Both the position numbers and the translations under genes were made by a program. Positions 3,300 to 61,903 of a DNA stretch of 64,000 nucleotides are shown here, piece by piece. The first letter of the stretch is position 1. Each line of letters opens with the position of its first letter. The stretch lies in NCBI RefSeq assembly GCF_001190925.1, contig NZ_CP011072.1, positions 1,674,001-1,738,000 of the forward strand, given 5' to 3'. The notes under the pieces were generated by a model that saw only the letters and a list, made by a program, of their open reading frames with translations, did no database searches and was not told where the DNA came from. This DNA comes from Azoarcus sp. CIB. GTDB lineage: Bacteria; Pseudomonadota; Gammaproteobacteria; Burkholderiales; Rhodocyclaceae.

Positions 3300-3462
3300 C
3301 TCCCTCCCCTTCAAGGGGGCGGAGGCGGGGTTTCGCAGAGCACCGCTCTGCGCCGCCGTAGCGGCGGAGCGAAGCGGAGACTCCCGGGGCGGGGTGGGGA
3401 TGGGTTACGCAGGCGTCGCAGAAACCCATCCCCCTCCTAGCCTCCCCCTTGAAGGGGGAGGA
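3300..3462. repeat. Intergenic palindromic repeat, family A copy 1
   Basis: The outer arms are complementary: CCCTCCCCTTCAAGGGGG on the left and CCTCCCCCTTGAAGGGGGAGG on the right are each self-complementary. Inner arms GGGGTGGGGATGGGTT and AAACCCATCCCCCTCC also pair. This copy carries a GC-rich insert between the left arm and the inner arm. Four further copies lie at 37248, 41169, 56061 and 61797, all between genes. Confidence 0.85.
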
Positions 3463-3500
3463 ACAGGGTTCCCGGCATGCCGTCGTGGCTGTGCCTGGCG

Positions 3501-4576: not shown

Positions 4577-5206
4577 TCAGCGGACGCGGATCTTCGGCGC
4601 GGGGGTGCCGCGTCGCATCGTCTCGAGGAACTTCTCCAGCGGCGCGGGCGGCGCGACTTCGGGCAGCGATTCCTTGTCGGGACGGTTGGCCCAGAACTCC
4701 TTCCACGACGGGAAAAGCTCGTGGAAGGTGCCGGCGTAGGGCGGGCGGCCCGGCCAGCGCATCTTCATGTCGCCGATCGGCGGCTTGTTCAGGTCGGTGG
4801 CGTACCAGTAGCACGGCAGGCGGCGCCGGAACAGCCAGCGGCCGTCGATGCGCTGGTAGTCGTCCCAGTACAGCATCTGCATGATCACCCACTCGCCGCC
4901 GCACTCGTGCTCGTTCTTCGAGTAGACGACGCCGGTGGCGTGGTCGCGGTCGGTGAACTCGATGATGTGCTGGCCGAGATGGTGGGAGGTGCCGGTGAAT
5001 TGCTCGCGCAGCGTGTCGTCCTGCCAGGCCTTGAAGTGAGCGCGGCCGACCCGCTCGCGGCCGACGCGGATGTCGGGCGCGAACAGGTTCACGTGCGAGT
5101 CCATGTCGCGCATGTCGAGCGACAGCGAGTACTTCGCGACGAGCTGACGGATTTCGTCGAGCGATTCGAGCCGGTCGATGCGTTCTTCGAGCGTGGGCGT
5201 GCTCAT
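4577..5206 (-). CDS. SnoaL-like / NTF2-fold protein
   Basis: A 209-residue cytoplasmic protein with no signal peptide. The N-terminal part (LEERIDRLESLDEIRQLVAKYSLS, broken here as two helices) followed by a beta-rich region with HHLGQHIIEF and RIDGRWLFRRR is typical of the SnoaL-like / nuclear transport factor 2 superfamily, which includes ketosteroid-isomerase-like, dehydratase and non-enzymatic members. It sits between an SDR gene (8 bp upstream) and the OYE gene (11 bp downstream), so it is translationally close-coupled in a catabolic operon. A proline-rich extension of about 50 residues at the C-terminus is longer than the bare fold. An isomerase or hydratase role is possible but unproven. 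Confidence 0.75.
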   Translation of the reverse strand: MSTPTLEERIDRLESLDEIRQLVAKYSLSLDMRDMDSHVNLFAPDIRVGRERVGRAHFKAWQDDTLREQFTGTSHHLGQHIIEFTDRDHATGVVYSKNEHECGGEWVIMQMLYWDDYQRIDGRWLFRRRLPCYWYATDLNKPPIGDMKMRWPGRPPYAGTFHELFPSWKEFWANRPDKESLPEVAPPAPLEKFLETMRRGTPAPKIRVR

Positions 5207-9700: not shown

Positions 9701-10342
9701 TCAGGCCCGACCGAACACGCGCCGGAACAGCGCGGCGATGCGGTCGAGGAAGACCTTGAACACTACGCCGACGACGTTGATCGAATCTTCCTTGCGCGGA
9801 ATGGCACGCGGAGGCGATTCGGGCGCGGTGGGTGCAGCGTTACCGCCTTCTGCCGCGGTGGAGGGAGCCGTGGAGGCTTCGTCGCGCGGGACTTCGAGCA
9901 GTGCGCGCACGTTGTTTACGTACTTCTTGATGATCTGTGCCGACACACCTTCGATCATGCCCCGCCCGACCTGGAGGATGCGCCCGGTGAGGTCGATGCT
10001 CGACTCGCAGCTCACTTCGGTGCTCCGGCCGTCGGGTGAAGGGGTGAGGCGGGTGACGATCGTTCCGCTGACGGTGCCGCCGCCGCGCTCGTTGCCTGAC
10101 GCGAGCAGCTTGACGATGTGCTGGGCGAGGTCCTTCTCGACGTAGGTGATCGTGCCCTGATACTGCGCCGTCACCGCGCCGATCTTGAGCTTCACCGCGC
10201 CGATGAAGCTGTCGGCATTCACGATTTCCGTCAGCGAGGCGCCCGGCATGCAGGCGACGACGTTCTGCGGGTCGAGCAGGAACTGCCAGACCGCGTCGAC
10301 CGGCGCGGCGACCTCGAATTTCTCCTGGATTTGCAGGGCCAT
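9701..10342 (-). CDS. CoxG-family (SRPBCC) protein
   Basis: A 213-residue protein. Residues 1-150 form a START/SRPBCC-like domain beginning KFEVAAPVDAVWQFLLDPQNVV and containing CMPGASL, the signature of carbon-monoxide-dehydrogenase subunit G. After a low-complexity linker rich in Ala, Pro and Ser, the last 30 residues (VVGVVFKVFLDRIAALFRRV) form a hydrophobic/basic helix that probably anchors it to the membrane. CoxG in Oligotropha recruits CO dehydrogenase to the membrane. The gene is 41 bp downstream of fbiC, in the F420 operon, although its natural partner would be the molybdenum hydroxylase at 56-60 kb. ATG at 10342 has AAGGA upstream. Confidence 0.85.
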   Translation of the reverse strand: MALQIQEKFEVAAPVDAVWQFLLDPQNVVACMPGASLTEIVNADSFIGAVKLKIGAVTAQYQGTITYVEKDLAQHIVKLLASGNERGGGTVSGTIVTRLTPSPDGRSTEVSCESSIDLTGRILQVGRGMIEGVSAQIIKKYVNNVRALLEVPRDEASTAPSTAAEGGNAAPTAPESPPRAIPRKEDSINVVGVVFKVFLDRIAALFRRVFGRA

Positions 10343-10383
10343 GTCCGTTCCTTGGTAGTGGTTGTCTTGGTTCTTGCGGGGCT

Positions 10384-12780
10384 TTAGCCGAGGCAGGCCG
10401 CGATTTCGTTGCCTTCGGCGTGCACGGCGTTCTCGCGCACGGCGGCGCGGCCATAAACCGTGTTGCGACGCCAGAGGGGGCGGCCGATGGCGGTTGCGAT
10501 GCGGTTCATGCCGGTGCCGTCCATTTCCTGGCCGTTCAGGCCACCGGCGGCGCGGGTGATCGATTCGTACATCAGTGTTCCGCCCAGATCGTTGGCGCCG
10601 GCTTGCAGGCACCGTGCCGCGCCGGTCGGCCCCATCTTGACCCACGAGGTCTGGATGTTCGGGATCAGCGGGTGCAACGCGAGGCGTGCAACCGCGTGCA
10701 TCAGCACGGCCTCGCGCGCGGTGGGGCCGGATCGGCTGCGGCCCTTGTGCCACAGCGGCGATTCCATATGCACGAAGGGCAGAGGCACGAATTCGGTGAT
10801 GCCGCCCGTGTCTCGCTGAAGTTGGCGCAGCTTGAGGAGATGGCGGGCCCAGTGGCGCGGAGTGTCGACGTGGCCGAACATGATTGTCGAGGTCGTGGGC
10901 ACCCCGACCTCGTGGGCCGCCCGCACGATGGCCAGCCATTCGTCCGTGCCGAGCTTGTCCGGGCACAGCTTTGCGCGCACCTCGTCGTCGAGCACTTCCG
11001 CGGCGGTGCCGGGCAGGCTGCCCAGCCCGGCGTCGCGCAACCGGCGCAGGAACGCGGCTGGTGACAGCCCAAGCGTGGCCGCGCCGTGGCGGATCTCGAG
11101 CGGCGAGAAGGCGTGAATGTGCATGTCCGGCACGGCGTCGCGTACGGCCGCGACGATGTCGAGGTAGGACTGACCCGTGTAGGCGGGGTGGATGCCCCCT
11201 TGCAGGCAGACCTCGGTGGCGCCTCGGCGGTGTGCCTCCAGGGCGCGCTGTCCGACCTCGTCGGCGCTCAGCACGTAGGCGGGGCCGCGCAGCGTCTCGG
11301 CGCTACGCCCCTTCGCAAAGGCGCAGAAGCCGCAGCGGTGTTTGCAGATGTTCGTGTAGTTGATGTTGCAGTTCGCGACGAAGGACACGCCTTCCCCAAC
11401 GGTGGCCGCGCGCAGGCGATCGGCTGCCTCGACGACGGCCGTGTAGTCGGCGCCGCGCGCTTCGAAGAGGGCGGCGATCGCATCCTCGGTGAGTTCGCGG
11501 CCGGCGCTGGCTTCGTCGATCAGCCGGAGGACAGTGCTCGACGGCGCACGCGCGTTGCTTCGGGCGCCGCCGCCGACGGATGGCGGGAGCGGCGCACCGC
11601 TGCCGGCGTGCCAGGCGTCGTCACGCGCGAAGCCCGATGCGTCGGTGCGGTGCAGGATGGCGCGCGAGATCTCGGGAGCGGTCCAGCGGGCCGCGTCGCG
11701 GGCGTAGGCGGGGACCAGCGCGAGGCGCTCGACGAGCTCCCGCCCGGCCGCCTCGGTTTCCTGCCGCAGCGTGGCAATGTGCGGCCACGCGGCCTCCGGG
11801 TTCACATGGTCGGGCGTGACCGGCGAGATGCCGCCCCAATCGTTGATGCCGGCGCGGATCAGCGGCGCGAGTTCGCCTGGGCGCAGGTTCGGCGGCGCCT
11901 GGATCGACATCGCGGGGCCGAAGATCAGGCGCGCCATCGCGATCGTCCACTGGTGTTCGACCAGGTCCGGCTCGGGCGCGTGCGCCATCGCGGTGCGCGG
12001 TTTGGCGCGGAAGTTCTGGACGATGATCTCCTGAATGTGGCCGTGCCGGTCATTCAGCGCGCGCAGGGCGATGAGGGCCTCGATCCGTTCGAAGCGCGTC
12101 TCGCCGATGCCGACGAGAATGCCGCTCGTCATCGCGATCGCCTGCTCGCCAGCGGCGTGCAGGGTCGCGAGGCGTGCGTCGGGATGCTTGTCGGGGCATT
12201 GCCAGTGCGGGCCACCGCGCTCGGTGAGGCGGGTGGCGGTCGACTCCAGCATCAGGCCCATCGATGCGGCGTGCGGCCGCAACCGGCCGAGCTCCTCTGC
12301 CGAGAGCGTTCCCGGATTGAGATGCGGCAGCAGTCCCGTCTCGTCGAAGATGCGGCGCGCCATCGCGGCGACGTAGTCCACCGTGCTGTCGAAGCCCAGC
12401 GCGGCGAGCGCGTCGCGCGCGGCGGGGTGGCGCAGCTCGGGGCGTTCGCCGAGCGTCAGCAGGGCCTCGCGGCAGCCGGCTGCGGCCCCGGCGCGGGCAA
12501 TCGCGAGCACCTCGTCCGGACTGAGATAGGCCGGTGTTCCTGTGCGCGGACTCTCCGCAAAGGTGCAGTAGCCGCAGCGGTTGCGGCACAGATGCGTGAG
12601 CGGGATGAAGACCTTGCGCGACCAGCCGACCGCGGTGCCGTGGCCCGCGAGGGTCAGTGCTTCCGCCGTCGCGAGGATCGGTTGGAGTTCGGCCGCGGCA
12701 GCGAGAATCGCCGCGCCTGTGGCGTCTAGCCTCAGTCCCGCGCGTACGTCGGCAAGGATTCGCTGTGCACTGTCGGCCAT
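10384..12780 (-). CDS. fbiC: FbiC: 7,8-didemethyl-8-hydroxy-5-deazariboflavin (Fo) synthase, CofG-CofH fusion
   Basis: A 798-residue fusion of two radical-SAM modules. The N-terminal CofG-like half has its CX3CX2C cluster motif at C65, C69 and C72 (HLCRNRCGYCTFAES); the C-terminal CofH-like half has a second at C479, C483 and C486 (NICKHRCGFCAF). Together they join a tyrosine-derived radical to the ribityl-aminouracil precursor to make Fo, the chromophore of coenzyme F420. The fused form and length match actinobacterial FbiC. The ATG at 12780 lies inside the 3' end of cofC (49-bp overlap); a GTG 13 codons earlier is the alternative. No ribosome-binding site is evident, which fits translational coupling. 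Its presence in a proteobacterial locus is uncommon. Confidence 0.95.
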   Translation of the reverse strand: MADSAQRILADVRAGLRLDATGAAILAAAAELQPILATAEALTLAGHGTAVGWSRKVFIPLTHLCRNRCGYCTFAESPRTGTPAYLSPDEVLAIARAGAAAGCREALLTLGERPELRHPAARDALAALGFDSTVDYVAAMARRIFDETGLLPHLNPGTLSAEELGRLRPHAASMGLMLESTATRLTERGGPHWQCPDKHPDARLATLHAAGEQAIAMTSGILVGIGETRFERIEALIALRALNDRHGHIQEIIVQNFRAKPRTAMAHAPEPDLVEHQWTIAMARLIFGPAMSIQAPPNLRPGELAPLIRAGINDWGGISPVTPDHVNPEAAWPHIATLRQETEAAGRELVERLALVPAYARDAARWTAPEISRAILHRTDASGFARDDAWHAGSGAPLPPSVGGGARSNARAPSSTVLRLIDEASAGRELTEDAIAALFEARGADYTAVVEAADRLRAATVGEGVSFVANCNINYTNICKHRCGFCAFAKGRSAETLRGPAYVLSADEVGQRALEAHRRGATEVCLQGGIHPAYTGQSYLDIVAAVRDAVPDMHIHAFSPLEIRHGAATLGLSPAAFLRRLRDAGLGSLPGTAAEVLDDEVRAKLCPDKLGTDEWLAIVRAAHEVGVPTTSTIMFGHVDTPRHWARHLLKLRQLQRDTGGITEFVPLPFVHMESPLWHKGRSRSGPTAREAVLMHAVARLALHPLIPNIQTSWVKMGPTGAARCLQAGANDLGGTLMYESITRAAGGLNGQEMDGTGMNRIATAIGRPLWRRNTVYGRAAVRENAVHAEGNEIAACLG

Positions 12781-13451
12781 GGCATGGGATTCCGGTGGGG
12801 GGTGGGGAAGTGGCGGCACGGTGGGTCGCGGCGAGCCGTCAGAGGGTGGCAGTGTGATTGGCTGAGTGATTGGCCGAGAGGACGCGCGAAGCGCGCGAGA
12901 TCGGCCGGCAGATCGACATCGAAGGCCAGTCCCGGCCGTTCGACGATAGCCGGCACCAGTCCGCAGCGCAGCGCCTCGGTGACGTGAATGGGGAAACTCT
13001 GCGTGCCGAACTGAAAGCGAAAATCGCTGCCGGCCTCGAGGTAGACCGCGTTGGTGCCGACGCGGGCCCGGTCGGGTGCGAGCGCGAGGCCGGATTGGCG
13101 ACCGCGCAGCACGAGTTCGTCGATGTCCTCGGGACGCGCGAGCGGCAGGTCTCCGTGCATCACGACGAGTTCGCTCGCGCCCCGGTCGGCGAGGGCGAGG
13201 GCGGCCTGCTGCACCGAGCCGTTAAGCCCGAGGCCGCAGTCGGGCAGGACCTCGACGGGGCGGGACGTGAGATTTGCGGCGGGGGTGACGATGGCGACCC
13301 GATCGATCAGTGACGAGCCGAGCAGCGCGTCGAGCACGCGATCGAGCATCGCGCGTATCAGGCGCTGACGCTCGCCCGGGCCGAGGACGCCGGCCAGCCG
13401 ACCCTTGCCCAGGGCGGGCAGCTTGATCGGGATCAGCGCCCAGCAGCTCAC
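12732..13451 (-). CDS. cofC: CofC/FbiD-type phospholactate (or phosphoenolpyruvate/phosphoglycerate) guanylyltransferase
   Basis: A 239-residue nucleotidyltransferase. The N-terminus ALIPIKLPALGKGRLAGVL carries the phosphate-contacting Lys/Arg motif of CofC, and HGDLPLARPEDID and FDVDLPADL contain the metal-binding acidic residues. In F420 synthesis this enzyme activates 2-phospholactate, phosphoenolpyruvate or (in Paraburkholderia) 3-phosphoglycerate with GTP to build the side chain; which is used here cannot be told. The start is GTG at 13451, 12 bp after the fno stop. The last 30 residues are His/Pro rich and overlap fbiC. The next enzymes of the pathway, CofD and CofE, are not in the window. 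Confidence 0.9.
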   Translation of the reverse strand: MSCWALIPIKLPALGKGRLAGVLGPGERQRLIRAMLDRVLDALLGSSLIDRVAIVTPAANLTSRPVEVLPDCGLGLNGSVQQAALALADRGASELVVMHGDLPLARPEDIDELVLRGRQSGLALAPDRARVGTNAVYLEAGSDFRFQFGTQSFPIHVTEALRCGLVPAIVERPGLAFDVDLPADLARFARPLGQSLSQSHCHPLTARRDPPCRHFPTPHRNPMPWPTVHSESLPTYARD

Positions 13452-13463
13452 GGTCGGCCCCGG

Positions 13464-14149
13464 TCAGTCGGCGTAGGCGGCGAGCGCGCCGGTGATGCGC
13501 ACGCCGGCCCCATCCACCGAATAGTTGCGGTTCATGAAGATGAGGATCGAGGTCAGGGCCTCGGCGGCTGCGGAGTTGTCCAGCGCCCCGGCATGGAGCC
13601 CGCGCAGGCCCGCGTCGTCCGCGAGCGCCGCGACCACGCCGCGCGCCGCCTTGTCGTCGCCGAAGACCAGCACACCAGCACGTCGCATTCGACCTCGACA
13701 TCGGTCGCGAGCTTGTGCGCAGCCACGTTGTGGAAGGCGGATACGACGCGCACGCCCTCGCCGAGCAGCGCCTGCGCGCGCAGCGCGGCGCAGCCTTCGG
13801 GCGGCAACTGGACCCGCATCACCTTGGGCGGCACGAGCGGCACCGTGGTATCGACGACGATCTTGCCGCCGACCGCAGGGCGGATCTCCTCGAGCACGGC
13901 AGCCTGCGAGGAGAAGGGAACCGTCACGACGACGATATCGGCCCGGCGTGCCGCGTCGAGGTTGGTGCCGGAGGCGATCTCGCGTCCCAGTTCGGCGCCC
14001 AGCACATCGGCTGCCGCACGGGCCTTGTCCGCGTCGCGCGACCCGATGACGACCTTGTGGCCGTGCTTCGCCCAGCGCCGTGCGAGCGCTGCGCCCAGGT
14101 GCCCGGTCCCGCCGACCACGCCGATGATTCGTTCCGTCCCGTTTGTCAT
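13464..14149 (-). pseudogene. fno: NADPH:F420 oxidoreductase, frameshifted by an 8-bp tandem duplication
   Basis: The N-terminal frame starts at ATG 14149 with IIGVVGGTGHLGAALARRWA, the dinucleotide fold of F420-dependent NADP reductase (NpdG/Fno), and continues through DIVVVTVPFSSQ and VSAFHNVAAHKL. At residue about 160 (VECDVLV) the frame is lost. The family's remaining C-terminus (VFGDDKAARGVVAAL through GALDNSAAAEALTSIL to a stop at 13464) is present in another frame. The cause is visible: ACCAGCAC is repeated exactly in tandem at 13666-13673 and 13674-13681, and deleting one copy restores one frame of about 225 residues. Fno would exchange hydride between NADPH and F420. The copy may be inactive, slippage-switchable, or a sequence error. 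Confidence 0.88.
13666..13681. repeat. 8-bp perfect tandem duplication inside fno
   Basis: ACCAGCAC occurs twice with no spacer. Removal of either copy changes the minus-strand reading D-V-L-V-C-W-S to D-V-L-V-F-G-D-D-K and joins the two halves of the reductase. Confidence 0.95.
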
Positions 14150-14277
14150 GTCTGGCCTCTTTTCGATGTGAGGCCAAAGCTATCAGCCGGGGGGGGCGGG
14201 CAGCATCGTTCTTTTGCACTATCGGTGGGGCAGGGGGCGATTCAAATCCGGTCAGGCGCCGCGGTATTCCGCCAATA

Positions 14278-14289
14278 GTCCCATTGGAT
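14278..14289 (+). promoter_or_regulatory. Shared palindromic operator-like motif, site 2
   Basis: AATAGTCCCATTGGATGATG in the plus direction: the core GTCCCATTGGAT has one mismatch from GTCC-N4-GGAC, and the flanking TAGTCC and GATG are conserved with sites 1 and 3. It lies 70 bp ahead of the acyl-CoA dehydrogenase operon and about 130 bp from the divergent fno start, so it could affect both directions. Confidence 0.5.
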
Positions 14290-14359
14290 GATGTGTCTCT
14301 CCGTGCCCGCCGGGAGAATCGCCCCATCAAGATCCACGAGGCGATTCACGGGAAAGCCA

Positions 14360-15475
14360 ATGGAAAATGCATTGCTGTTATCCGACGAGCAACTCGCGCT
14401 GCAGGACACGGCGGCCGCGTTCCTCGCCGAGTTCGCCAATGCCCGCAAGCCGCGGGACGAGGATGCATCCCTCTGGCGGCGCATCAGTGAGCTGGGGTGG
14501 CCGGCGGTGCAGGTGCCGGAGGACTTGGGCGGGCTGGCCATGGGGGCGGTGGAACTCGCCCTGCTGATGGAGGAGATGGGGCGCCGGTTGATCCGCTCGC
14601 CCTACTTCGCGAGCGTGGTGTTGGCGCAGACGGCTCTGCTCGAAGCGGGTAGTGCCGCAGCGCGCGAGCGTTTCCTGCCCGAACTCGCGAGCGGCGAGGT
14701 GAGCGCGACACTGATCCTCGCGCCCGGGCTCGTCTGGGCCCCGGACGCGATCGGCATCGAATGCCGCCGCGAGGGGGACGGATGGGTGATGAACGGCGAG
14801 GCCGCGCAGGTGCTCGACGACGGCAACGCCGCGATGGCCTTTGTCGCCGCGCGTACCGAGGATGGCATCGGCCTCTTCCATGTTTCGGCACACGCCGCCG
14901 GCGTCGAGCGCAGTCCGTTGGATGTCTGGGATCTGACCCGCCCGCAATGCGCGTGGCGCTTCCGGGAGGTGCGTCTCGCGGCCGATGCCCGCATCGACGC
15001 GCCCGGGAAGCTCGACGCGGGGCTTGCGCGCACGGTCTCGCTCGCCGCGCTGCAGCTTGCGGCCGAGCAGGTCGGCGGCGCGGCGGCCTGCCTCGACATG
15101 ACCGTGGCCTACACGAAGGAACGCGTCCAGTTCGGCCGTCCGGTCGCGAGTTTCCAGGCCGTCAAGCACCGTTGCGCGCAGATGATGGTGAAGCTCGAAA
15201 CCGCCCGCTCCGCCGTGCGTGGCGTCGCCGCAAGCGTCGCCCGCCTGCAGGACGCGGACGCGCTGGCCTGCGAGGTCGCTGTCGCGCGCGTGCTCGCGTC
15301 GGACGCCTATCGCTACTGCGCACAGGAGGCGGTGCAGCTGCACGGCGGCGTGGGATTCACATGGGAATACGACCCGCAACTGCACTTCAAGCGCGCGCAG
15401 TGGGGCAGCCAGTGGCTCGGTCCGGCCAGCCGCTGGCGCGAGCGCGTGGCCACCCAACTTCTGGATCTTGCCTGA
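14360..15475 (+). CDS. Acyl-CoA dehydrogenase (subunit 1 of a likely pair)
   Basis: A 371-residue flavin-dependent acyl-CoA dehydrogenase fold: an N-terminal helical domain (LSDEQLALQDTAAAFLAEF), a middle beta region and a C-terminal helical domain with QFGRPVASFQAVKHR and VQLHGGVGFTWEYDPQLHF. Enzymes of this family make an alpha,beta double bond in a CoA thioester and hand electrons to ETF. It lies 22 bp before a second acyl-CoA dehydrogenase of similar size; adjacent pairs of this kind form alpha2-beta2 heterotetramers in steroid side-chain degraders, so a heteromer is inferred. ATG at 14360 was chosen because homology begins at MENALLLSDEQ; the spacing from the motif at 14278 also fits. 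Confidence 0.9.
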   Translation: MENALLLSDEQLALQDTAAAFLAEFANARKPRDEDASLWRRISELGWPAVQVPEDLGGLAMGAVELALLMEEMGRRLIRSPYFASVVLAQTALLEAGSAAARERFLPELASGEVSATLILAPGLVWAPDAIGIECRREGDGWVMNGEAAQVLDDGNAAMAFVAARTEDGIGLFHVSAHAAGVERSPLDVWDLTRPQCAWRFREVRLAADARIDAPGKLDAGLARTVSLAALQLAAEQVGGAAACLDMTVAYTKERVQFGRPVASFQAVKHRCAQMMVKLETARSAVRGVAASVARLQDADALACEVAVARVLASDAYRYCAQEAVQLHGGVGFTWEYDPQLHFKRAQWGSQWLGPASRWRERVATQLLDLA

Positions 15476-15497
15476 CATGGATGCGACAAAGGATTCG

Positions 15498-16643
15498 ATG
15501 AACGAGACGGCCTTTCGCGCCGAAGTGGCCGCGTGGCTCGCGCGCGAGCTGAAGGGCGAATTCGCCTGCCTGCGCCACCGCGGCGGCCCCGGCGACGAAG
15601 AGGCCTTCCCGGCCTTGCGCAAGGACTGGGAACGCAAGCTCGCCGAAGGGGGCTGGGTTGGCGCGTCGTGGCCGCAGGAGCATGGGGGGCGCGGTTTGCC
15701 GCTGGAACTTCAGCTCGCCTTCCATGAGGAATACGTGCGCGCGGGCGGCCCCGGCCGCATGGGCCACATCGGCGAAACCCTGCTTGCCCCGACCCTGATC
15801 GAGCTCGGCACCCCCGAGCAGCAACGCCGCTTCCTGCCCGGCATCCGCGAGGGACGCGAATTCTGGTGCCAGGGCTATTCGGAGCCGGGCGCAGGTTCGG
15901 ACCTCGCGGCGATCACCACCCGCTGCTGGCAGGACGGCGACGTGTGGCGTGTACAGGGGCAGAAGGTGTGGACCTCGCTCGCGCATGAATCCGACTGGAT
16001 TTTCGTGATCGCGCGCAGCACGCCGGGTTCGGTGGGCCGCGAAGGACTCACCTTTCTTCTGATGCCGCTCGACCAGCCGGGCATCGAGATCCAGCCGATC
16101 CGCCAGATGACCGGCGAGGCGGAGTTCAACGCGGTGTTCTTCGACGGCGCCGCGACCGATGCGGGCTGCATCGTAGGCAAGCCCGGCGAGGGCTGGCGTG
16201 TCGCGATGGCCTTGCTCGGCTTCGAGCGCGGCGCCTCGACACTGGGCCAGCAGATGCACTTCGTGCATGAGATGCAGCTCGTCGTCGATGCCGCGATCGC
16301 CATAGGCACGGCCTTCGATCCTGCCATACGCGAACGCATCGCCGACGCGTGGATCGGCCTCCGCGCGCTGCGCCACAACGCCCTGCGCATGCTCGCGGGC
16401 AATGACGGCGGCGTCCGCCCGGAATCGCTGATGTACAAGTACGCGTGGTCGAACTGGCATCGCGATCTCGGCCAGCTGGCGATGGACGTGCTCGGCGCAG
16501 CCGGCGACGTGCGCTCCGACGACGACACCGTGCGTCGACTGCAGCAAGTGTTCTTCTTCTCCCGCGCCGACACGATCTACGCGGGCACCAACGAAATCCA
16601 GCTCAACATCATCGCCGAGCGCGCGCTGGCCATGCCGCGCTGA
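15498..16643 (+). CDS. Acyl-CoA dehydrogenase (subunit 2 of a likely pair)
   Basis: A 381-residue acyl-CoA dehydrogenase. It shows GGWVGASWPQEHGGRG, the flavin-contacting QGYSEPGAGSDLA region, KVWTSLAHESDW and the C-terminal IYAGTNEIQLNIIAERAL that closes the active site in family members. It follows the first dehydrogenase closely and precedes the LLM oxidoreductase by 22 bp. I start at ATG 15498 because AAAGGA lies just upstream; an in-frame ATG at 15477 directly after the preceding stop is the alternative and adds seven residues. The two dehydrogenases probably act together on the same CoA ester. Confidence 0.9.
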   Translation: MNETAFRAEVAAWLARELKGEFACLRHRGGPGDEEAFPALRKDWERKLAEGGWVGASWPQEHGGRGLPLELQLAFHEEYVRAGGPGRMGHIGETLLAPTLIELGTPEQQRRFLPGIREGREFWCQGYSEPGAGSDLAAITTRCWQDGDVWRVQGQKVWTSLAHESDWIFVIARSTPGSVGREGLTFLLMPLDQPGIEIQPIRQMTGEAEFNAVFFDGAATDAGCIVGKPGEGWRVAMALLGFERGASTLGQQMHFVHEMQLVVDAAIAIGTAFDPAIRERIADAWIGLRALRHNALRMLAGNDGGVRPESLMYKYAWSNWHRDLGQLAMDVLGAAGDVRSDDDTVRRLQQVFFFSRADTIYAGTNEIQLNIIAERALAMPR

Positions 16644-16665
16644 CGCGACCGGAAAGGGAGTTCCC

Positions 16666-17535
16666 ATGCGTTTCGTGCTGCAACTCGGCTTCAGCAACTA
16701 CCGCAATTACACCGCGATCGCCCAGGCCGCCGACGCTGCCGGCTGGGATTGGTTGTCCATTCCGGACAGTCTGTTCTTTCCGCGACTGACGGAGTCGGAA
16801 TATCCGTATGCCGAAACCAGTGCGATCCGGCAATACCTGGAACATTCCGACTTCATCGAGCCCTTCGTCGCGATGTCGACGATGGCGGCGGTGACGCAGC
16901 GGATCGGTTTCTACCCTGGAGTGATGAAGGTGCCGGTGCGCCAGCCGCTGATTCTCGCGAAGGCGCTGTGTTCGCTTGCGGTTATCTCCAACGGGCGCGT
17001 CGCACTCGGTGCGGGCCTGAGCCCGTGGAAGGAGGACTTCGTCTATAACGGCGCGGATTTCGAACGCCGCGGCGAACTGATGGACGAGTGCATCGCCGTG
17101 TTGCGCGGCGCAATGAGCGGCGAGTTCTTCGAATTCCATGGCAAGCATCACGACTTCGGCCCGCTGCGCATGCGCCCGGTGCCGGAAAAACCGGTGCCGA
17201 TCCTGATCGGCGGACACAGCAAGCCCGCACTGCGCCGCGCCGCACGTCTGGGCGATGGCTGGGTTTCTGCCAACACCGATCTGCCGACGCTGAAAGACCT
17301 GATCGCCGAGGTCAATGCCTACCGCGCCGAGTTCGGCACCCTCGGGCGCGACTTCCAGTTCCACGGCATCGATTTCGCCGCACGCACCGTCGATGACTTC
17401 AAGCGCCTCGCCGAGGTCGGCGTAACCGATGCCGGCGTACTGCCGTGGGACGTCCGCAGCGATCCGACGGACCTGCAGGGCCAGCTCGACGCGATCCGCC
17501 GCTTCGGCGACGAGGTCATCGCGAAGATGGGCTGA
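16666..17535 (+). CDS. LLM-class flavin/F420-dependent oxidoreductase
   Basis: A 289-residue luciferase-like TIM-barrel protein. Seen features are the N-terminal QLGFSNYRNYTAIAQAADAAGWDWLSIPDS, split across strand 1 and helix 1, RIGFYPGVMKVPVRQPLILAKAL, SNGRVALGAGLSPWKEDF and the PVPILIGGHSKPALRRAARLGDGW phosphate-site region. Members use reduced F420 or FMNH2. Location argues for F420: the F420 synthesis and reductase genes diverge from this operon. AAAGGGAG precedes the ATG. It lies between the dehydrogenase pair and the crotonase (3-bp gap), so it likely acts on a CoA-bound or ring intermediate of the same route. FMNH2 use cannot be excluded. Confidence 0.88.
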   Translation: MRFVLQLGFSNYRNYTAIAQAADAAGWDWLSIPDSLFFPRLTESEYPYAETSAIRQYLEHSDFIEPFVAMSTMAAVTQRIGFYPGVMKVPVRQPLILAKALCSLAVISNGRVALGAGLSPWKEDFVYNGADFERRGELMDECIAVLRGAMSGEFFEFHGKHHDFGPLRMRPVPEKPVPILIGGHSKPALRRAARLGDGWVSANTDLPTLKDLIAEVNAYRAEFGTLGRDFQFHGIDFAARTVDDFKRLAEVGVTDAGVLPWDVRSDPTDLQGQLDAIRRFGDEVIAKMG

Positions 17536-17538
17536 ACC

Positions 17539-18552
17539 ATGGCGGACGGCGACCCCGCGGTCCTCGACCTGGCCGACCTGCGCGCGTTGCGCTTCGCGTC
17601 GGCCGGCGGGGCAGGGGGCTCGCCGTTCGCGCCCGATCCTTTCCTCGTCGTCGCCCCCGTCGGGGCGGACGAAGGCGATGAGGACCAGCTCGCCGCCTGG
17701 CTCGCGCGCCAGCCCTGCCCGGTGATCGGGTTCTCCGATAAGGGTGCCGCGGCCTCAGCGCTGCTCGCCGCCTGCGACGTCGTGCTGGACGACATCGGCG
17801 ATCTCGCACCAATCGCTGCAAACATCCGTAAGGCGCCGCTCGCAGCGATGACGCTGGTGCAGGTGCTACGCGTCACGGACGGCATGCCGCCCGCACAAGC
17901 CCTGGCCGTCGAATCCTTGGCGTACGCAACTCTGCAGGCCGGGCCCGAGTTCGCGGCGTGGTCGCGCGCGAATCCGCCTGCGCCTGAGAAGCTCATCGTT
18001 GGGGAGGGGCCGGCGGTGCGCATCGAGCGCGACGGATCACGGATCGAACTCATCCTGAACCGTCCGCGCAGCCGCAATGCGATGTCGGTCGAGATGCGGG
18101 ACGCCCTGTGCGAGGCGCTGCAGCTTGTCGTCGCCGACGAATCCATCACCTCGGTCACGCTCTCCGGTGCCGGCGCCTGTTTCAGCACGGGTGGCGAGTT
18201 GCGCGAGTTCGGCACCGCCCCCGATCCGACCACAGCACATGCCATCCGCAGCCAGCGTCTGCCTGCCGCGCTGCTCCTTCAATGTGCCGATCGGGTCACC
18301 GCCCATCTGCACAGCGCATGCATCGGCTCGGGAATCGAACTCCCTGTGTTCGCGCATCGCGTCACGGCGGCCCGCGACACCTTCATCCAGCTGCCGGAAC
18401 TGCGCTTCGGCCTCATTCCCGGGGCCGGTGGCTGCGTGAGCTTGCCGCGACGCATCGGGCGACAGCGGACGGCGTGGCTGGCGTTCTCGGGGCGGCGGAT
18501 CAGCACGGCGACGGCGTTGGGGTGGGGGCTGGTTGATGAGGTCGTCGACTAG
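17539..18552 (+). CDS. Enoyl-CoA hydratase/isomerase family protein with extended N-terminus
   Basis: A 337-residue protein. Residues about 155-337 form a crotonase domain: IELILNRPRSRNAMSVEM, VTLSGAGACFSTGGELREF for the oxyanion hole, and LPELRFGLIPGAGGCVSLPRRIG. The first 150 residues are not part of a standard crotonase; phrases such as LAACDVVLDDIGDLAPIAANI and ALAVESLAYATLQAGPEF resemble a worn second crotonase half. The C-terminal trimerisation helices after GLVDEVVD are missing, so the protein ends early for the family. It is the last gene of the dehydrogenase operon and its final 4 bp overlap the convergent amidohydrolase gene. Confidence 0.8.
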   Translation: MADGDPAVLDLADLRALRFASAGGAGGSPFAPDPFLVVAPVGADEGDEDQLAAWLARQPCPVIGFSDKGAAASALLAACDVVLDDIGDLAPIAANIRKAPLAAMTLVQVLRVTDGMPPAQALAVESLAYATLQAGPEFAAWSRANPPAPEKLIVGEGPAVRIERDGSRIELILNRPRSRNAMSVEMRDALCEALQLVVADESITSVTLSGAGACFSTGGELREFGTAPDPTTAHAIRSQRLPAALLLQCADRVTAHLHSACIGSGIELPVFAHRVTAARDTFIQLPELRFGLIPGAGGCVSLPRRIGRQRTAWLAFSGRRISTATALGWGLVDEVVD

Positions 18553-27681: not shown

Positions 27682-27960
27682 ATGCCTAGTTCAAGCGCTT
27701 TCTCACGCGTGGTCGTCATGCTGCTCACGACCGTAGTCCTTTGTGCCCAATGCGAACGGGCAACAGCCGAGTGGGTGGAGGTAAGAAAGCACCCGGTATC
27801 GACGATTTACATAGATCCTGAGATCGCGCGATATGACAAGGATATCTTTTTGGCATGGATGCTAGCGGACTTCTCCCCTCCGTACAAAAATCCCCTGATC
27901 CTATCGTCGCGTTTTCAGATGGCCTACGACTGCCAGGGCAATCGCACCTTCATGTCATAA
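27682..27960 (+). pseudogene. Surface-adhesin-E-like protein, 3' truncated by the IS element
   Basis: Genuine residues are about the first 84. They start with a signal peptide (VVVMLLTTVVLCAQC) and continue EWVEVRKHPVSTIYIDPEIA, then WMLADF and an AYDC segment. This pattern of W..V....YYD plus a late YDC is that of small exported proteins of the surface-adhesin protein E type, which usually run about 120-140 residues. At 27934 the sequence enters the insertion element, which adds the codons Q-G-N-R-T-F-M-S and a stop. The rest of the gene is missing on the other side, so the gene is broken. Confidence 0.7.
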
Positions 27961-29200
27961 CCCCGAGCAACTCGGCGCGAAATTCATCGACGGTGGCAGC
28001 CAGCATGCGCTTCGATTTGATGCTCGCCTTGCGGGTCGTATTGAGCCGCAGCAGGTTCATCACGATGTGGCGGACGATGGCCAGGTTGTTGGCGGCATAA
28101 CCGCTGCGCACCCGTGACTGATCCTCATTGAACTGCACATCCAGACACCAGTGAAGGCGATTCTCCACCTCCCAGTGACTGCGTACGGCCCGAGCGATGC
28201 GCTCGGCGTCGGCGGGCAGGCTGCTGATGTAGTAGGCGCGCTCGGTGCTGGTGCGATTGCCCACCGTGCGCACGCGCTCGACCACGGCAAAGCTGGCGAT
28301 GTCCTGCCAGTCCTCGGCCTTGTAGAGCCGCTCGGTTGCATCAAAGGCCCAGCATCGCCTGACTTCGCTACGACCGTGGCCTGGATTCTTGGTCTCGTGC
28401 GTCGAACTCGGTGTCAGCGGTCCGTTCGGACCGATACCGGCAAACATGATCGAGTCGAGCAGCTTCGGATGGTTGTCCTTCACGCACAGCACGTAATGGG
28501 CGCCACGCTCGCGGATCGTGCGCGCGATCTTCGTCTGCGTGCCCATCGCGTCGATCGTCACCACGCAGCCCTCGAGCGCCAACTTGGCGAGCAATTCCGG
28601 GATCGCCGTGATCTCGTTGGATTTCTCGGCGGTCGCCGTCTGGCCCAACACAACACCCATACCGGCCACGAATGCGCTGACCAAGTGCAGCGGACTCGCC
28701 TGCGTCTTGGTCTTGCTGGCGGTTCGTCGGCTGGTCTTGCCATCGATTGCCACGACCGTGTCCTCGGCCAACGCGGGCACCACCATGCCAACCCAGCGCC
28801 GGAATGCAGATTCGAACTCATCGGGCGTGATCATGCCGAACACGCGACCGATCGTGTCATGGGACGGGATGCCATGCTCAAGCTTCATGAAGCCCCGCAG
28901 CCAGTCGATCTTGGCCTCGGCCCACAATTCGATGTCGACGAAGTCGTCCACGCCCGACAGCACCGCGCAAACCGCCACCGTGAGCAGTTCGGCAAGATCG
29001 TGGCGCTTGTGGCGCGCGCTGCGCGGATCGGAAATCGAGACGAACACCTGCGTCAGCGGCATGATGTTTCCTGCCTTCATGGGCGGCCCAAAAAGGTAGG
29101 AAACTACACAAATTATGCCGCTGTGAACAGGGGCTCGGTAAGGTCATGAAAGTTAACAATCTTTGGCATTCGCATATGCCAAGTCGGTGCGATTGCCCTG
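27934..29200 (-). mobile_element. ISAs1-family insertion sequence (1,267 bp)
   Basis: The ends are a perfect 15-bp inverted repeat, CAGGGCAATCGCACC at 27934-27948 and its complement at 29186-29200. The length and single DDE transposase fit the ISAs1 family (including H-repeat elements). Family members make 8-10-bp target duplications; here no duplication is directly adjacent, although the 7-mer CCTACGA occurs 4 bp left of the left end and exactly at the right end. Together with two different truncated genes on the two sides this suggests a deletion or recombination after insertion. Confidence 0.88.
27950..29062 (-). CDS. ISAs1-family transposase
   Basis: About 370 residues, intact. The N-terminal region (SARHKRHDLAELLTVAVCAV) matches the DDE_Tnp_1-associated domain. 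The catalytic triad is seen as VAIDGKT, VTIDAMGTQTKIA and the Glu of SHWEVENRLHWCLDVQF. I prefer ATG 29062 because AGGA lies 6 bp upstream; another ATG at 29080 would add six residues. The stop codon lies 2 bp inside the left inverted repeat. It is probably capable of transposition if expressed. Confidence 0.92.
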   Translation of the reverse strand: MPLTQVFVSISDPRSARHKRHDLAELLTVAVCAVLSGVDDFVDIELWAEAKIDWLRGFMKLEHGIPSHDTIGRVFGMITPDEFESAFRRWVGMVVPALAEDTVVAIDGKTSRRTASKTKTQASPLHLVSAFVAGMGVVLGQTATAEKSNEITAIPELLAKLALEGCVVTIDAMGTQTKIARTIRERGAHYVLCVKDNHPKLLDSIMFAGIGPNGPLTPSSTHETKNPGHGRSEVRRCWAFDATERLYKAEDWQDIASFAVVERVRTVGNRTSTERAYYISSLPADAERIARAVRSHWEVENRLHWCLDVQFNEDQSRVRSGYAANNLAIVRHIVMNLLRLNTTRKASIKSKRMLAATVDEFRAELLGVMT

Positions 29201-30114
29201 CCTACGAGACCAACACGCGCAATGTCTGTGCTCAACGCGACTTCATGCGGTTCGAAGCCAAGGGGCGTAAGCCGGACTGGCTCGAAGAAGAGTTTGGCAA
29301 GCTCGAATCAATGGCTGTGGCAGCCATTCGCGAGGTGATGAAGTCAGGAGATTTTGACGGCGAAAACAAGAACTACATACTCAACTTGATGGCCTTGCTG
29401 GCCGTTCGTTCACCCGAGCAGCGTGAGAATATGCGCGAGTTTCAAGCGCGCGTGGCGCAGCGCATGATGGAATTGGTGCTCGAAACGAAGGAGCGCTGGG
29501 AGTCTCAGATCAGTGAAATGGAAGAGACTACGGGTAAACCAAGGTCGGTCACGTATGAGGAAGTCAAGGATTTCCACGAGCAGGGTAAGTACACGATCGA
29601 GGTTGCGCGCGAGCGACACATTCAGACCGAGATCAATTTGTACAACACGGTGTTGCAACTGCTTGGCCAGCGAAAGTGGACGTTATATTCAGTTCCTGGT
29701 GACTACGGCGAGTTCATTACTACGAGTCGGCCGGTGGTGATTGCGTATATCGATCCGGAAAAGGTGCCGTTGTACCTGCGGCACTCCCCGGGCTTCGGTC
29801 TCAAGAACACGGAGGTCTACTTTCCACTGACGAAGCACGCCCTATTGGTTGGGCGTTGGGATGGCGATGAAAAGACTATCAGCCCGGCAAATCAGGCGTT
29901 CGTAGGTGTGATGAATTACCAGATGATCCAGCACTCTTACGGACTGGCGCTGTCTTCAGCCCGTGAAGTGCTATACCACGATCCGCTACTGCGACTCCAA
30001 TGGGACGACAAGGTGATCGACAGGTTCACTGTTCCCCCGAGCGAAGAAGATGTCGCGCAATTCAAAGCCAACCACGGAATCGCGGACACCCCGGAAGCGA
30101 GACGAACAGACTAG
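29146..30114 (+). pseudogene. DUF4238-family protein, 5' truncated by the IS element
   Basis: The native coding sequence resumes at the IS right end (29201) in frame with PAYETNTRNVCAQRDFM and continues as a DUF4238-like protein: LEEEFGKLESMAVAAIREVM, then NLMALLAVRSPEQREN and a later part with HSPGFGLKNTEVYFPLTKHA. DUF4238 proteins normally begin with a QHYVP-type segment about 50 residues earlier, which is absent. An ATG at 29146 inside the element and an ATG at 29245 could still give a shortened product. Function of the family is unknown; it often occurs in accessory islands. Codon use is less GC-biased than in neighbouring catabolic genes. Confidence 0.7.
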
Positions 30115-35284: not shown

Positions 35285-35674
35285 CTATTGCCGCCAGTGG
35301 CCTTCGAAGTCGAACGAAAGCTGTCGCTGGAGTCGGATAGTCAGCAGATAGATCGCGCCTCCAGCCTGTGCGTAGAGCAGCAGGTAGTCCTTGAGGACGT
35401 ATTCGCGGAGGGCGTCCATGTCGGCTGTCAGTGCAGACAACTTTGCACGGAGCGTTGCCAGCGCATTGGTGGCTTCCACGGAGCGCGGCTGACGGGTCAG
35501 GAAGGGGCGCCCCATGTCCGGGTAGCGCTCGAGGTTGGGAATCACCGTTTCAAGCAGTTCGTCCAGCAAGCTGTCGAAGGCTTGCGGTACTTCCGCTTCG
35601 GTCAGGAAGCGCTCGATGTCTTCGAGGTTGCGCTCGAAGTTCGCGGTGAGTTTGACGACCGGTTTTCCTGCCAC
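35285..35674 (-). CDS. RelE/ParE-family toxin (second pair)
   Basis: A 129-residue protein: VVKLTANFERNLEDIERFL, YPDMGRPFL and the later EYVLKDYLLLYAQAGGAIYLLTIRLQRQLSFD segments (broken here) fit the RelE/ParE toxin fold. It is a little longer than the first toxin because of an insert in the middle. It stops only 34 bp before the position of the palindromic motif of the aldehyde dehydrogenase operon. Its antitoxin gene lies 18 bp upstream. Confidence 0.82.
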   Translation of the reverse strand: MAGKPVVKLTANFERNLEDIERFLTEAEVPQAFDSLLDELLETVIPNLERYPDMGRPFLTRQPRSVEATNALATLRAKLSALTADMDALREYVLKDYLLLYAQAGGAIYLLTIRLQRQLSFDFEGHWRQ

Positions 35675-35692
35675 AAGCAGATCCGTCGCAAC

Positions 35693-35983
35693 TCAGACGC
35701 TGCGACGGCGCTTGATGGACTGAACCACGCTGCGGGCGTCCTTCACCTTGCCGGCGGCAACATCGTCGAGTCCCTTGGCGGCCTCGTCGATCAGCAGCAG
35801 ATGAATCCGCTCACGCTCCAGCTGGTGGTAGTAGTCCAGACGGTTGGCGTCGATCAGGGCGACGTAGCTCTCACCGTTCTTGGTGATGATCTTCTCGGCG
35901 CCGCCCTTGACCTCTTCCGCCAGTTCGGAAAAGTTGGCCCGCGCGTGAGAGAGCGGGACGACGTCACTTGCGGAGATAGCCAT
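35693..35983 (-). CDS. Phd/YefM-family antitoxin (second pair)
   Basis: A 96-residue antitoxin with VPLSHARANFSELAEEVKGG, KIITKNGESYVALIDANRL, the Phd/YefM dimer fold, and a charged C-terminal tail that ends KRRRSV. GGAGG lies before the ATG. An AT-rich patch at 36000-36030 (TACAGAATATTGTACG) upstream contains a near-palindrome, TACAGAATATTGTA, that may be its own operator. It pairs with the toxin gene 18 bp downstream. Confidence 0.88.
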   Translation of the reverse strand: MAISASDVVPLSHARANFSELAEEVKGGAEKIITKNGESYVALIDANRLDYYHQLERERIHLLLIDEAAKGLDDVAAGKVKDARSVVQSIKRRRSV

Positions 35984-41134: not shown

Positions 41135-41168
41135 CGAGTTGGGAGCCGGGGACGTGGTGATCTTGGTT

Positions 41169-41262
41169 CCTCCCCCTTCAAGGGGGAGGTCAGGAGGGGG
41201 ATGGGTTTCTGCGGCGTCCGCTAGACCCATCCCCACCCCAGCCCTCCCCTTGAAGGGGAGGG
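41169..41262. repeat. Intergenic palindromic repeat, family A copy 3
   Basis: CCTCCCCCTTCAAGGGGGAGG, then GGAGGGGGATGGGTTTC, ACCCATCCCCACCCCAG and CCCTCCCCTTGAAGGGGAGGG. It is the short form, without inserts, and lies in inverted orientation relative to copy 4. It may form a long hairpin between the aldolase and MFS genes. Confidence 0.88.
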
Positions 41263-56215: not shown

Positions 56216-58639
56216 TTAATTGCCGTGCTGGCCGCGCTGGTCGTGCAGCAGTTGCCACAGCCGGCGCGGCGACGCGGGGGTTTCCCGGCACTCGAGGCCC
56301 AGCGGGGCCAGGGCGTCGTTGATCGCGCACAGCAGCGCCGCGGGCGTCGTATGGATCGCGCCTTCGCCGCAGCCCTTGGCCCCGAGCGGCGCGATCGGCG
56401 AGGGCGTGACGATGTGATCCTTCACGGTCATCGGCACCTCGTGGATGGTCGGCATGAGGTAGTCGACGAAGGTGCTGACCAGCGGCTGGCATTGCGCGTC
56501 GTAGACGTATTCCTCGTAGAGCGCCGCGCCAACGCCCTGCGCGACGCCCCCCTGCAACTGGCCTTCGACGTTCGCAGGGTTCAGGCGCGTGCCGCAGTCG
56601 TCGACGATGTAGTAGCCGAGGATCTCGACCTGCCCCGTATCGCGGTCGATTTCGACCTGGACGACGTGGGTGGCCGCGGCCGCGGTGAGATAGCTGCGGC
56701 AGCGCCCCTGGTCGTCGGGCAGATTGCGGTTTGGCGAGACCCAGACGAAGGTGGCTTCCGGGCAGGGCTCGACGCCGGGAGGCAGCAGGTCGCTGCGCGA
56801 CAGCATGAGGCCCGCGACTTCCGCGATGGTCATGCCGTGTTCCGGCGCGGCCTTGATCTGCAGGCGGCCGTTCATCAGTTCGATCTGCTCGGGCTCGGTC
56901 TGCATCACGTGGGCGACCACCCTGCAGAAAACTTGCCGCAGCTTTTCGCAGGCGCCCAGGATCGCGCCGGTCACGGCGACGCCCAGCCGGCTGCCGCCCT
57001 GACCGAAGTGGGGCAGGGCGACATCGGTGGAGGCGGTGGTGACTTTGACCGCATTCATGTCGACGCCGAGGTAATCCGCGACGACCTGCGCGGCGACCGT
57101 GAACTGGCCCTGGCCCTGCAGATTGAAGCCGACCGCGACGGTGACGGTGCCGAAGACATCGACGGCGACCTTGACGCCTTCGGGTACGCCGACGCCGGGT
57201 ACGCCTACCGTGGCATAAGCGTTCCAGTCGAAAACGCCCGGTTCGACGGTGCTCACTACGCCGATGCCGACCAGCCGGCCCTCGGCGCGAGCCTTCGCCT
57301 GCGATTCGCGCAGCGACTCGTAGTCCGCGAGTTCGAGGACCCGGTCAAGCACCGCGGCGTAGTTGCCGCTGTCGTATTCGTTGCCGCTCGGCACCGTGTA
57401 GGGAAACTGCTCGGGCCGGATGTAGTTGCGGCGGCGCAGCTCGGCCGGGTCGAGCGTGAGTTCGCGCGCGGCGACGTCCATCAGCGATTCGAGGACCAGG
57501 TTGTGGGGCGGGGGGCCGTAACCGCGATACGGGTAGGTGGGCGCCCGGTTGGTGGCGACTAGCGTGAGGTCGTAGAGGGCCGCCTCGATGCGATAGTTGC
57601 CGGTGAAGGCGGCGAGCGGCTTGGCAGCCGAGATGGTGCCATAGCCTTCGGCGCCTGCGCCCTGGTCGTCGACGAGGCGCACCTTGAAGCCGGTCACGGT
57701 GCCGTCGGCCTTGAGCGCGAGAGACGCGTCGTAGTAGCGGTCCCAGGACTGTCCGCCGCCGGCGAGCAGGTATTCCATGCGGTCTTCGATGTACTTGACG
57801 GGGCGTCCGTCGCTCTTGCGCGACAGCAGCGCCGCGATGTCGGTGCCGCGCGGCCCGCCCTTGCCGCCGAAGCCGCCACCCTGGGCGTGGCTGATGATCT
57901 TGACCTTATTGGCCGGCAGGCGCAGCGAGGCGGCGCGGCCGATCGCCATGAAGCGCGGCGTCTGGTAGGCGCCCCGGCAGGTGAGGCTGTTGTCCGCGAG
58001 GTCCCACTGGCAGATGCAGCCGAAGGTCTCGGTGGGGTTCGCGCCGACGCGATTCCAGCGGAATTGGCGGCTGACGATGCGGTCAGCTTCGGCGAACACG
58101 CGATCGACCTCGCCCCAGGTGTAGGTGCGGCTCTGGATGACGTTGGTGCCGCGGTTCTCGAACACGAGGGGCGCACCGGGGGCCATCGCCTCGTCTGGAT
58201 TCGCGACGGGGGCCAGCAGTTCATACTCGACCTGGATCAGTTCCAGCGCATCCTCGGCGATGTAGCGATTGCTCGCAGCGACGGCAACGACCGGTTCGCC
58301 GACGAAACGCACCTTGCCGACCGCGAGACAGTAGTTGCCCCATCCTTCCGGTGCCGTGAAGCAGGGGTCGCACCAGCGCTCGACGTCCTCGCCGGTCAGC
58401 ACCGCCTCGACGCCGGGCAGCTCCAGCGCCGCGCTGACGTCGATGCCGGTGATGCGCGCGTGCGGATGCGGGCTGCGCAGGATCGCGCAGTGGAGCATGC
58501 CGGGCAGCGACAGGTTGTCGATGAACTCGACGGTGCCGGAGACGAGCGCGGGGTCTTCGATGCGCTTGACGGCCTTGCCGATGAAACGCGTGGCGCTGGT
58601 CGGCAGCTGATCGGTACGGGTGGGAATGTCGATCGCCAT
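56216..58639 (-). CDS. Molybdenum hydroxylase large subunit (xanthine dehydrogenase family)
   Basis: An 807-residue Mo-binding subunit. Domain order: FIGKAVKRIEDPALVSGTVE at the start, then IISHAQGGGFGGKGGPRG for cofactor binding, YPYRGYGPPPHNLV in the position of the form II AYRGAGR loop, and GAKGCGEGAIHTTPAAL with the catalytic Glu E759. The CO-dehydrogenase-specific AYxCSFR loop is absent, so it is not a CO dehydrogenase. The enzyme would hydroxylate a carbon next to a ring hetero- or carbonyl atom, using water. It is the last of three linked genes (large, 2Fe-2S, FAD order by transcription: FAD first). ATG 58639 is 22 bp after the small-subunit stop and has no clear ribosome-binding site. 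Confidence 0.92.
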   Translation of the reverse strand: MAIDIPTRTDQLPTSATRFIGKAVKRIEDPALVSGTVEFIDNLSLPGMLHCAILRSPHPHARITGIDVSAALELPGVEAVLTGEDVERWCDPCFTAPEGWGNYCLAVGKVRFVGEPVVAVAASNRYIAEDALELIQVEYELLAPVANPDEAMAPGAPLVFENRGTNVIQSRTYTWGEVDRVFAEADRIVSRQFRWNRVGANPTETFGCICQWDLADNSLTCRGAYQTPRFMAIGRAASLRLPANKVKIISHAQGGGFGGKGGPRGTDIAALLSRKSDGRPVKYIEDRMEYLLAGGGQSWDRYYDASLALKADGTVTGFKVRLVDDQGAGAEGYGTISAAKPLAAFTGNYRIEAALYDLTLVATNRAPTYPYRGYGPPPHNLVLESLMDVAARELTLDPAELRRRNYIRPEQFPYTVPSGNEYDSGNYAAVLDRVLELADYESLRESQAKARAEGRLVGIGVVSTVEPGVFDWNAYATVGVPGVGVPEGVKVAVDVFGTVTVAVGFNLQGQGQFTVAAQVVADYLGVDMNAVKVTTASTDVALPHFGQGGSRLGVAVTGAILGACEKLRQVFCRVVAHVMQTEPEQIELMNGRLQIKAAPEHGMTIAEVAGLMLSRSDLLPPGVEPCPEATFVWVSPNRNLPDDQGRCRSYLTAAAATHVVQVEIDRDTGQVEILGYYIVDDCGTRLNPANVEGQLQGGVAQGVGAALYEEYVYDAQCQPLVSTFVDYLMPTIHEVPMTVKDHIVTPSPIAPLGAKGCGEGAIHTTPAALLCAINDALAPLGLECRETPASPRRLWQLLHDQRGQHGN

Positions 58640-58661
58640 GAGAGGAAGTCCGTGAGCCGCG

Positions 58662-59156: not shown

Positions 59157-59186
59157 GGTGAACCTCGTGCCTGGAGTGAGAGGGCT

Positions 59187-61796: not shown

Positions 61797-61894
61797 CTCC
61801 CTCCCCTTCAAGGGGAGGGTTGGGGTGGGGATGGGTTAAGCAGCGGCGCCAGAAACCCATCCCCCTCCTAACCTCCCCCCTTGAAGGGGGAGGA
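61797..61894. repeat. Intergenic palindromic repeat, family A copy 5
   Basis: CTCCCTCCCCTTCAAGGGG, then TTGGGGTGGGGATGGGTT, AAACCCATCCCCCTCCTAAC and CCCCCCTTGAAGGGGGAGG. Short form, nearly identical to copy 4. Confidence 0.9.
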
Positions 61895-61903
61895 ACTGGT
61901 GCA

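Follow-up and report, generated by a model that had tools for sequence, protein, structure and literature searches.

A probable stranded remnant of coenzyme F420 synthesis beside an LLM oxidoreductase operon in Azoarcus sp. CIB

Introduction

The reason why proteobacteria make coenzyme F420 is treated as an open question in the available part of PMC8498797. In our literature search, none of the titles and abstract openings dealt with F420 in Azoarcus or Aromatoleum. Azoarcus sp. CIB, for which the accessible part of PMC4207700 describes an endophytic life, raises the question in a particular form: genes for the synthesis and reduction of F420 lie back to back with an operon that contains an LLM-class oxidoreductase. 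Does this strain make F420, and does the neighbouring oxidoreductase use it?

We analysed a stretch of 64,000 nucleotides (here called the window), which corresponds to positions 1,674,001–1,738,000 of the CIB genome. The genome is a single contig of 5,257,030 bp and is 100% complete by the tool's estimate. A sequence-only reading of the window had supposed that the LLM step uses F420H2, that the cofactor genes were brought in or kept for it, and that CofD and CofE, which are absent from the locus, are encoded elsewhere. Here, we report a genome-wide search for the missing genes, a comparison with related clusters and an estimate of selection on the genes that remain. Together they make it likely that the window holds the stranded remnant of an F420 system, and that the pathway of CIB stops at the precursor FO. 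The presence of FbiC, or of FbiC together with CofC, does not prove F420 production.

Results and discussion

Layout of the locus

The minus-strand operon consists of three genes. fbiC (10387–12780), which encodes an FO synthase fused from CofG and CofH, is intact: it scores 1085 bits with NF006687 (cut-off 1018), and both radical-SAM CxxxCxxC motifs are preserved. The guanylyltransferase gene cofC (12735–13451) has an intact frame and matches TIGR03552 (137 bits, cut-off 105) and PF01983. The third gene, fno or npdG, for NADPH:F420 oxidoreductase (13467–14149), is broken. A region of 210 bp (14150–14359) separates the start of this operon from that of a divergent plus-strand operon, which is composed of the acyl-CoA dehydrogenase genes acad1 (14360–15475) and acad2 (15477–16643), the LLM oxidoreductase gene (16666–17535; TIGR03619, 190.5 bits, cut-off 166.9) and a gene for a crotonase-fold protein (17539–18552). 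The last is not truncated, because the copies of relatives are of the same length class. Coordinates and family scores thus bear out the arrangement described by the sequence-only reading, and its gene set stands; the range that it gave, 9701–17535, ends before the crotonase gene, and its first 640 bases belong to a CoxG-like gene (9701–10342, minus strand) downstream of fbiC.

The best NCBIfam neighbours of the two dehydrogenases are IpdE2 for acad1 and pimC for acad2, both under their cut-offs, which suggests that the operon breaks down a ring or a dicarboxylic acid as its CoA ester. The CIB genome encodes two PF00296 proteins, both inside the window, and both exceed the cut-off of TIGR03619, the family of Rv2161c-type LLM oxidoreductases. 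The CIB enzyme differs from the Rv2161c type in its operon mates, which are acyl-CoA dehydrogenases and a crotonase. The gene of the second LLM protein (61904–62827, minus strand) lies near three genes at 56216–60062, the starts of which resemble molybdenum hydroxylase.

CofD and CofE are missing from the genome

In the whole CIB genome, neither PF01933 for CofD (four candidates scored) nor PF01996 for CofE (seven candidates scored) gave a match at an E-value of 0.001. The same models recognise two CofD proteins of relatives at 159–178 bits and three CofE proteins at 227–255 bits, and therefore they work on this group. The supposition that CofD and CofE are encoded elsewhere fails on this result, and the absence of a cofD homologue is the very outcome that the sequence-only reading had named in advance as contradicting its proposal; cofE is missing as well. 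FO synthase and CofC are present and the two later enzymes absent, so that CIB has no known route to F420. Like other proteobacterial F420 clusters, which comprise FbiC, CofC, CofD and CofE, that of CIB has the FbiC fusion, CofC and a betaproteobacterial Fno; it differs from them in lacking cofD and cofE, both in the cluster and in the genome, and in its broken fno.

In a survey of 150 genomes (CIB and 149 relatives), 83 matched FbiC at an E-value of 0.001, but only 20 encode a full-length protein (19 over the cut-off, and G078 with its copy divided over two contigs); the others are weak radical-SAM matches. CofD is present in 18 of the 150, including 17 of the 20 FbiC genomes. Those without it are CIB, G018 (83% complete) and G083 (95% complete, 190 contigs), while G148 has CofD without FbiC. 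Within the genus, FbiC occurs in 10 of 17 genomes and CofD in nine; all nine other FbiC genomes carry CofD, and the exception is CIB. A further check covered the records reached through 40 of the 80 FbiC loci (the best 80 of 362 matches), of which 39 also encode CofD; some of these 40 records are of the same species as genomes in the survey. The single miss is a metagenome-assembled Lysobacteraceae bin, in which a 4.4-kb contig (L005) carries a type I cluster, as defined below, without cofE and cofD and with an FbiC 85% identical. This contig is probably misbinned and Aromatoleum-like.

Origin of fbiC

The sequence-only reading had proposed to compare gene trees of FbiC with those of actinobacteria. 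The nearest named relatives of the CIB protein are those of Azoarcus and Aromatoleum species, which places the strain in that betaproteobacterial group, and the copy of Azoarcus sp. Aa7 is 95% identical; an actinobacterium is named in the title of none of the best 80 of 362 matches. In the FbiC tree, which has no actinobacterial row, the window's copy falls within a betaproteobacterial clade. The titles of these 80 matches and the placement in the tree lend no support to an actinobacterial donor, and we reject a recent transfer, of which these matches bear no sign.

Three types of cluster, with complementing halves in relatives

The genus holds three types of F420 cluster. Type I, that of the window, forms one clade of nine in the FbiC tree (support 100/100). 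In Aromatoleum sp. G013 (L095) it is uninterrupted, with the order fno-cofE-cofD-cofC-fbiC, and adjoins the same LLM operon. On either side of the intergenic region, the genes of this locus follow in the same order as in CIB (FbiC 77% and LLM 83% identical); it differs in keeping, between fno and cofC, the cofE and cofD that CIB lacks, and the corresponding place in CIB is a gap of 15 bp (13452–13466). The same two genes are missing from seven of the nine type I loci, including that of CIB; in these seven, which form a clade, 15 to 70 bp separate fno from cofC. The type I locus of A. anaerobium is not among the seven, and the part of its cofD that can be aligned is reduced to about 176 residues.

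Whole type II clusters occur in Aa7 and A. toluolicum; that of A. anaerobium has its fno in two frames. Three species of the clade of seven, G012, A. toluclasticum and A. evansii, carry a separate cofD-cofE pair that groups within the type II CofD clade (100/99), and the flank past cofE is collinear with whole type II clusters at 87–89%. In the 14–16 kb fetched around these remnants, fno and cofC were undetectable, and so was fbiC, except that two loci gave, past the flank, a match some 35 residues long (E 0.003 to 0.013). In G012 and A. evansii, a type I half and a type II half jointly make one pathway. A. toluclasticum (L107) and Aa7 (L102) additionally hold a whole type III cluster, and therefore half-clusters are not their sole source of F420. 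F420 clusters in this genus are thus broken up and complement each other.

Two further arrangements were observed. In A. anaerobium, the two clusters (L103 and L104) lie about 100 kb apart, one with a shortened cofD and the other with a split fno, and complement each other. In A. aromaticum EbN1, the F420 cluster (L105, G004:C3) is on a 223,670-bp plasmid, NC_006824.1. Among plasmid records in general, 73 have a match to FbiC and 39 to CofD.

The broken fno

As the sequence-only reading had noticed, fno is broken: CIB has two overlapping frames for Fno in place of one intact frame. Alignment with a 95%-identical relative (L001) places the loss of frame at 8 bases that are missing from the relative, and these extra bases exactly repeat the preceding 8 (13666–13681). 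Exact tandem 8-mers are not rare by themselves (one observed in the 64 kb against a mean of 2.7 in mononucleotide shuffles), and therefore the case for a mutation rests on the alignment. We rejected a homopolymer sequencing error, as the longest run within 13641–13710 is two bases. The gene is unbroken at seven other loci that are type I or neighbours of type I (L001, L002, L092, L095, L097, L098 and L103). A second intact fno was not found in the CIB genome, where the next match, at 1,170,950, is only 35% identical. Insertion sequences of the IS66 type generate 8-bp target duplications; the repeat in fno could be the footprint of an insertion sequence that has since been excised, and slippage is an equally possible origin. 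According to the part of PMC8498797 available, Fno is the only F420 reductase known in betaproteobacterial producers.

Probable loss of a complementing locus

We compared the gene order of 220 kb of G012 with that of 244 kb of CIB, using matches of at least 400 bases and at least 76% identity. The order is common to both from 2,114,063 in G012 to the end of the stretch and from 1,652,358 onward in CIB; to the left of 1,652,358 there are two matches, single and out of place. On the left side of this break, at a distance of 53 kb, G012 has its cofD-cofE pair (2,061 kb). On the same side in CIB, two transposases are found 1.6 and 4.0 kb from the break, and the farther one is of the IS66 type. Their position fits a transposase-linked loss or replacement of the cofD-cofE region, which they may have caused. 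A tRNA at the break was considered and rejected, as none occurs in four 20-kb stretches.

No orthologous counterpart of the Aa7 type II and type III loci, or of the 16-kb cofD-cofE locus of G012, was found in the CIB genome. An empty orthologous site for the Aa7 clusters was also rejected: once the matches to fbiC, cofC and fno of the window itself and to a dispersed repeat are excluded, those to the Aa7 flanks are short or at most 85% identical, and are located elsewhere. For the CIB lineage, loss of a complementing locus is the simpler reading compared with receipt of a type I cluster already damaged, because the clade of seven shares the cofE-cofD damage.

The account that we favour builds on what is directly established, namely the gene content, the absences in a one-contig genome, the complementing half-clusters of relatives and the broken fno. 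An ancestral cluster fno-cofE-cofD-cofC-fbiC would have stood beside an operon whose LLM enzyme most likely used F420. cofE and cofD would then have been lost harmlessly while a second F420 cluster supplied the missing steps. In CIB, the supplying genes would subsequently have gone too, and fno would have been broken. FbiC, if active as predicted, would still make FO, which known enzymes cannot convert to F420, and the LLM step, with its presumed need for F420, would probably be idle. The genus offers a natural experiment, since the same LLM operon is accompanied by a whole cluster in G013, by complementing halves in G012 and A. evansii, by two clusters with different damage in A. anaerobium and by a stranded half in CIB.

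Cofactor of the LLM oxidoreductase

An alternative is that the oxidoreductase is an FMN-dependent monooxygenase that stands beside F420 genes by accident. A fold search with the LLM model, in which residues 35–64 have pLDDT below 50, speaks in favour of FMN, as it ranks the FMN-type SfnG on top, with the F420-type Mer and FGD2 interspersed among the lower matches. Among proteins of solved structure, however, the four closest in sequence are F420 enzymes, and the TIGR03619 score is over the cut-off. Fold and sequence rank different enzymes first, so that structure is not decisive for the cofactor.

Distribution bears on both sides. An LLM orthologue (at least 57% identity) occurs in 10 of the 150 genomes; all ten encode a full-length FbiC and nine encode CofD, the exception again being CIB. 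The association with FbiC has a hypergeometric probability of 1.6e-10, which ignores kinship, and eight of the ten genomes are of one genus. The LLM operon adjoins the same F420 cluster in five relatives (G013, A. anaerobium, Aa7, A. toluclasticum and G012), and the LLM protein of Aa7 is 99% identical to that of CIB. Among the best 80 of 362 FbiC matches, an LLM relative of at least 60 bits is near only 19 loci (15 of the 49 loci of at least 20 kb), and therefore the link between LLM and FbiC is not general. Ten of the 20 FbiC genomes have no LLM orthologue, so that F420 in this group serves other enzymes too. On balance, we regard the FMN alternative as rather unlikely, and the LLM enzyme of the relatives likely uses F420. 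The idea that this step uses F420H2 and that the cofactor genes travel with it is therefore supported for the group, given the ten orthologues that all occur with FbiC and the five shared loci, but not for CIB itself, where neither cofD nor cofE was found.

Selection on the remaining genes and the possible use of FO

If the pathway has been cut short, fbiC might be expected to decay, and we looked for such decay in the form of relaxed selection. With A. toluclasticum as outgroup, replacement and silent changes number 10:38 on the CIB branch against 10:28 on that of Aa7; with A. toluolicum, they number 14:35 against 19:38. Relaxed selection on fbiC of the CIB branch was thus not seen with either outgroup. 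In a simple model with a transition weight of 4 and the constraint taken from the Aa7 branch, the neutral share of the CIB branch is at most 8 or 11%, depending on the outgroup. cofC gives a mixed picture, as one outgroup yields 1:7 against 1:5 and the second 7:5 against 3:12 (Fisher p 0.057), and the LLM operon genes have changed at so few sites on the CIB branch that selection cannot be estimated. It follows from the absence of relaxed selection that F420 synthesis ceased only recently, or else that FO is what FbiC has been kept for. This counts against a stranded remnant in that fbiC does not look like a gene in old decay, and the loss would have to fall within about the last tenth of the branch.

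The second possibility would make FO the wanted end product, as a host signal, as an antenna for light or as a cofactor by itself, with cofC, fno and the LLM operon as leftovers. The purifying selection on fbiC agrees with it, and recent loss fits equally, since the LLM and acyl-CoA dehydrogenase genes are also intact and little changed. CIB encodes one DNA photolyase, a potential user of FO, which scores 346 bits with 1dnp, an MTHF-type enzyme, and 288 bits with the 1owl group, of the FO type (8-HDF), and is thus closer to the former. In the part of PMC11104420 available, a betaproteobacterial–fungal symbiosis of Mycetohabitans is described as needing FO and not F420. There, as in photolyases, FO is a product in itself, and it would likewise be the last product that CIB could make; Mycetohabitans differs in that it also produces 3PG-F420 (same source, available part). 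A point against FO as end product is that the genes for FO and F420 co-occur in the majority of organisms, as stated in the accessible text of PMC8498797. Taken together, FO as end product seems to us improbable, and we would give a similarly small chance to CIB as an FO-only producer whose FbiC is selected since FO is useful as a plant or fungal host signal or as a stand-in cofactor of the LLM enzyme.

That CIB does make F420 is the least probable of the alternatives, all of them unlikely: a plasmid outside the assembly could carry cofD and cofE, as the plasmid-borne cluster of EbN1 illustrates, or an unrelated enzyme might possibly substitute for CofD or for both, and FbiC and CofC are conserved, but the genome is one contig of complete estimated content and its broken fno has no other close copy. 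A stranded remnant remains our preferred reading of the locus.

Other features of the window

The dispersed repeat excluded above, of about 80–170 bp, occurs in the window at 3300–3469, 41167–41244 and 61817–61895, and in at least 36 places in the CIB genome at an E-value of 8e-20 or better (40 of 712 candidates scored). It also flanks the type II cluster of Aa7 (L008, near 4,870–5,080). A transposase gene with DDE_Tnp_1 and DDE_Tnp_1_assoc domains (27950–29080) lies in a stretch of lower GC (0.58 at 28001–30000), and a pair of genes at 35285–35983 encodes a ParE-type toxin and a Phd/YefM-type antitoxin.
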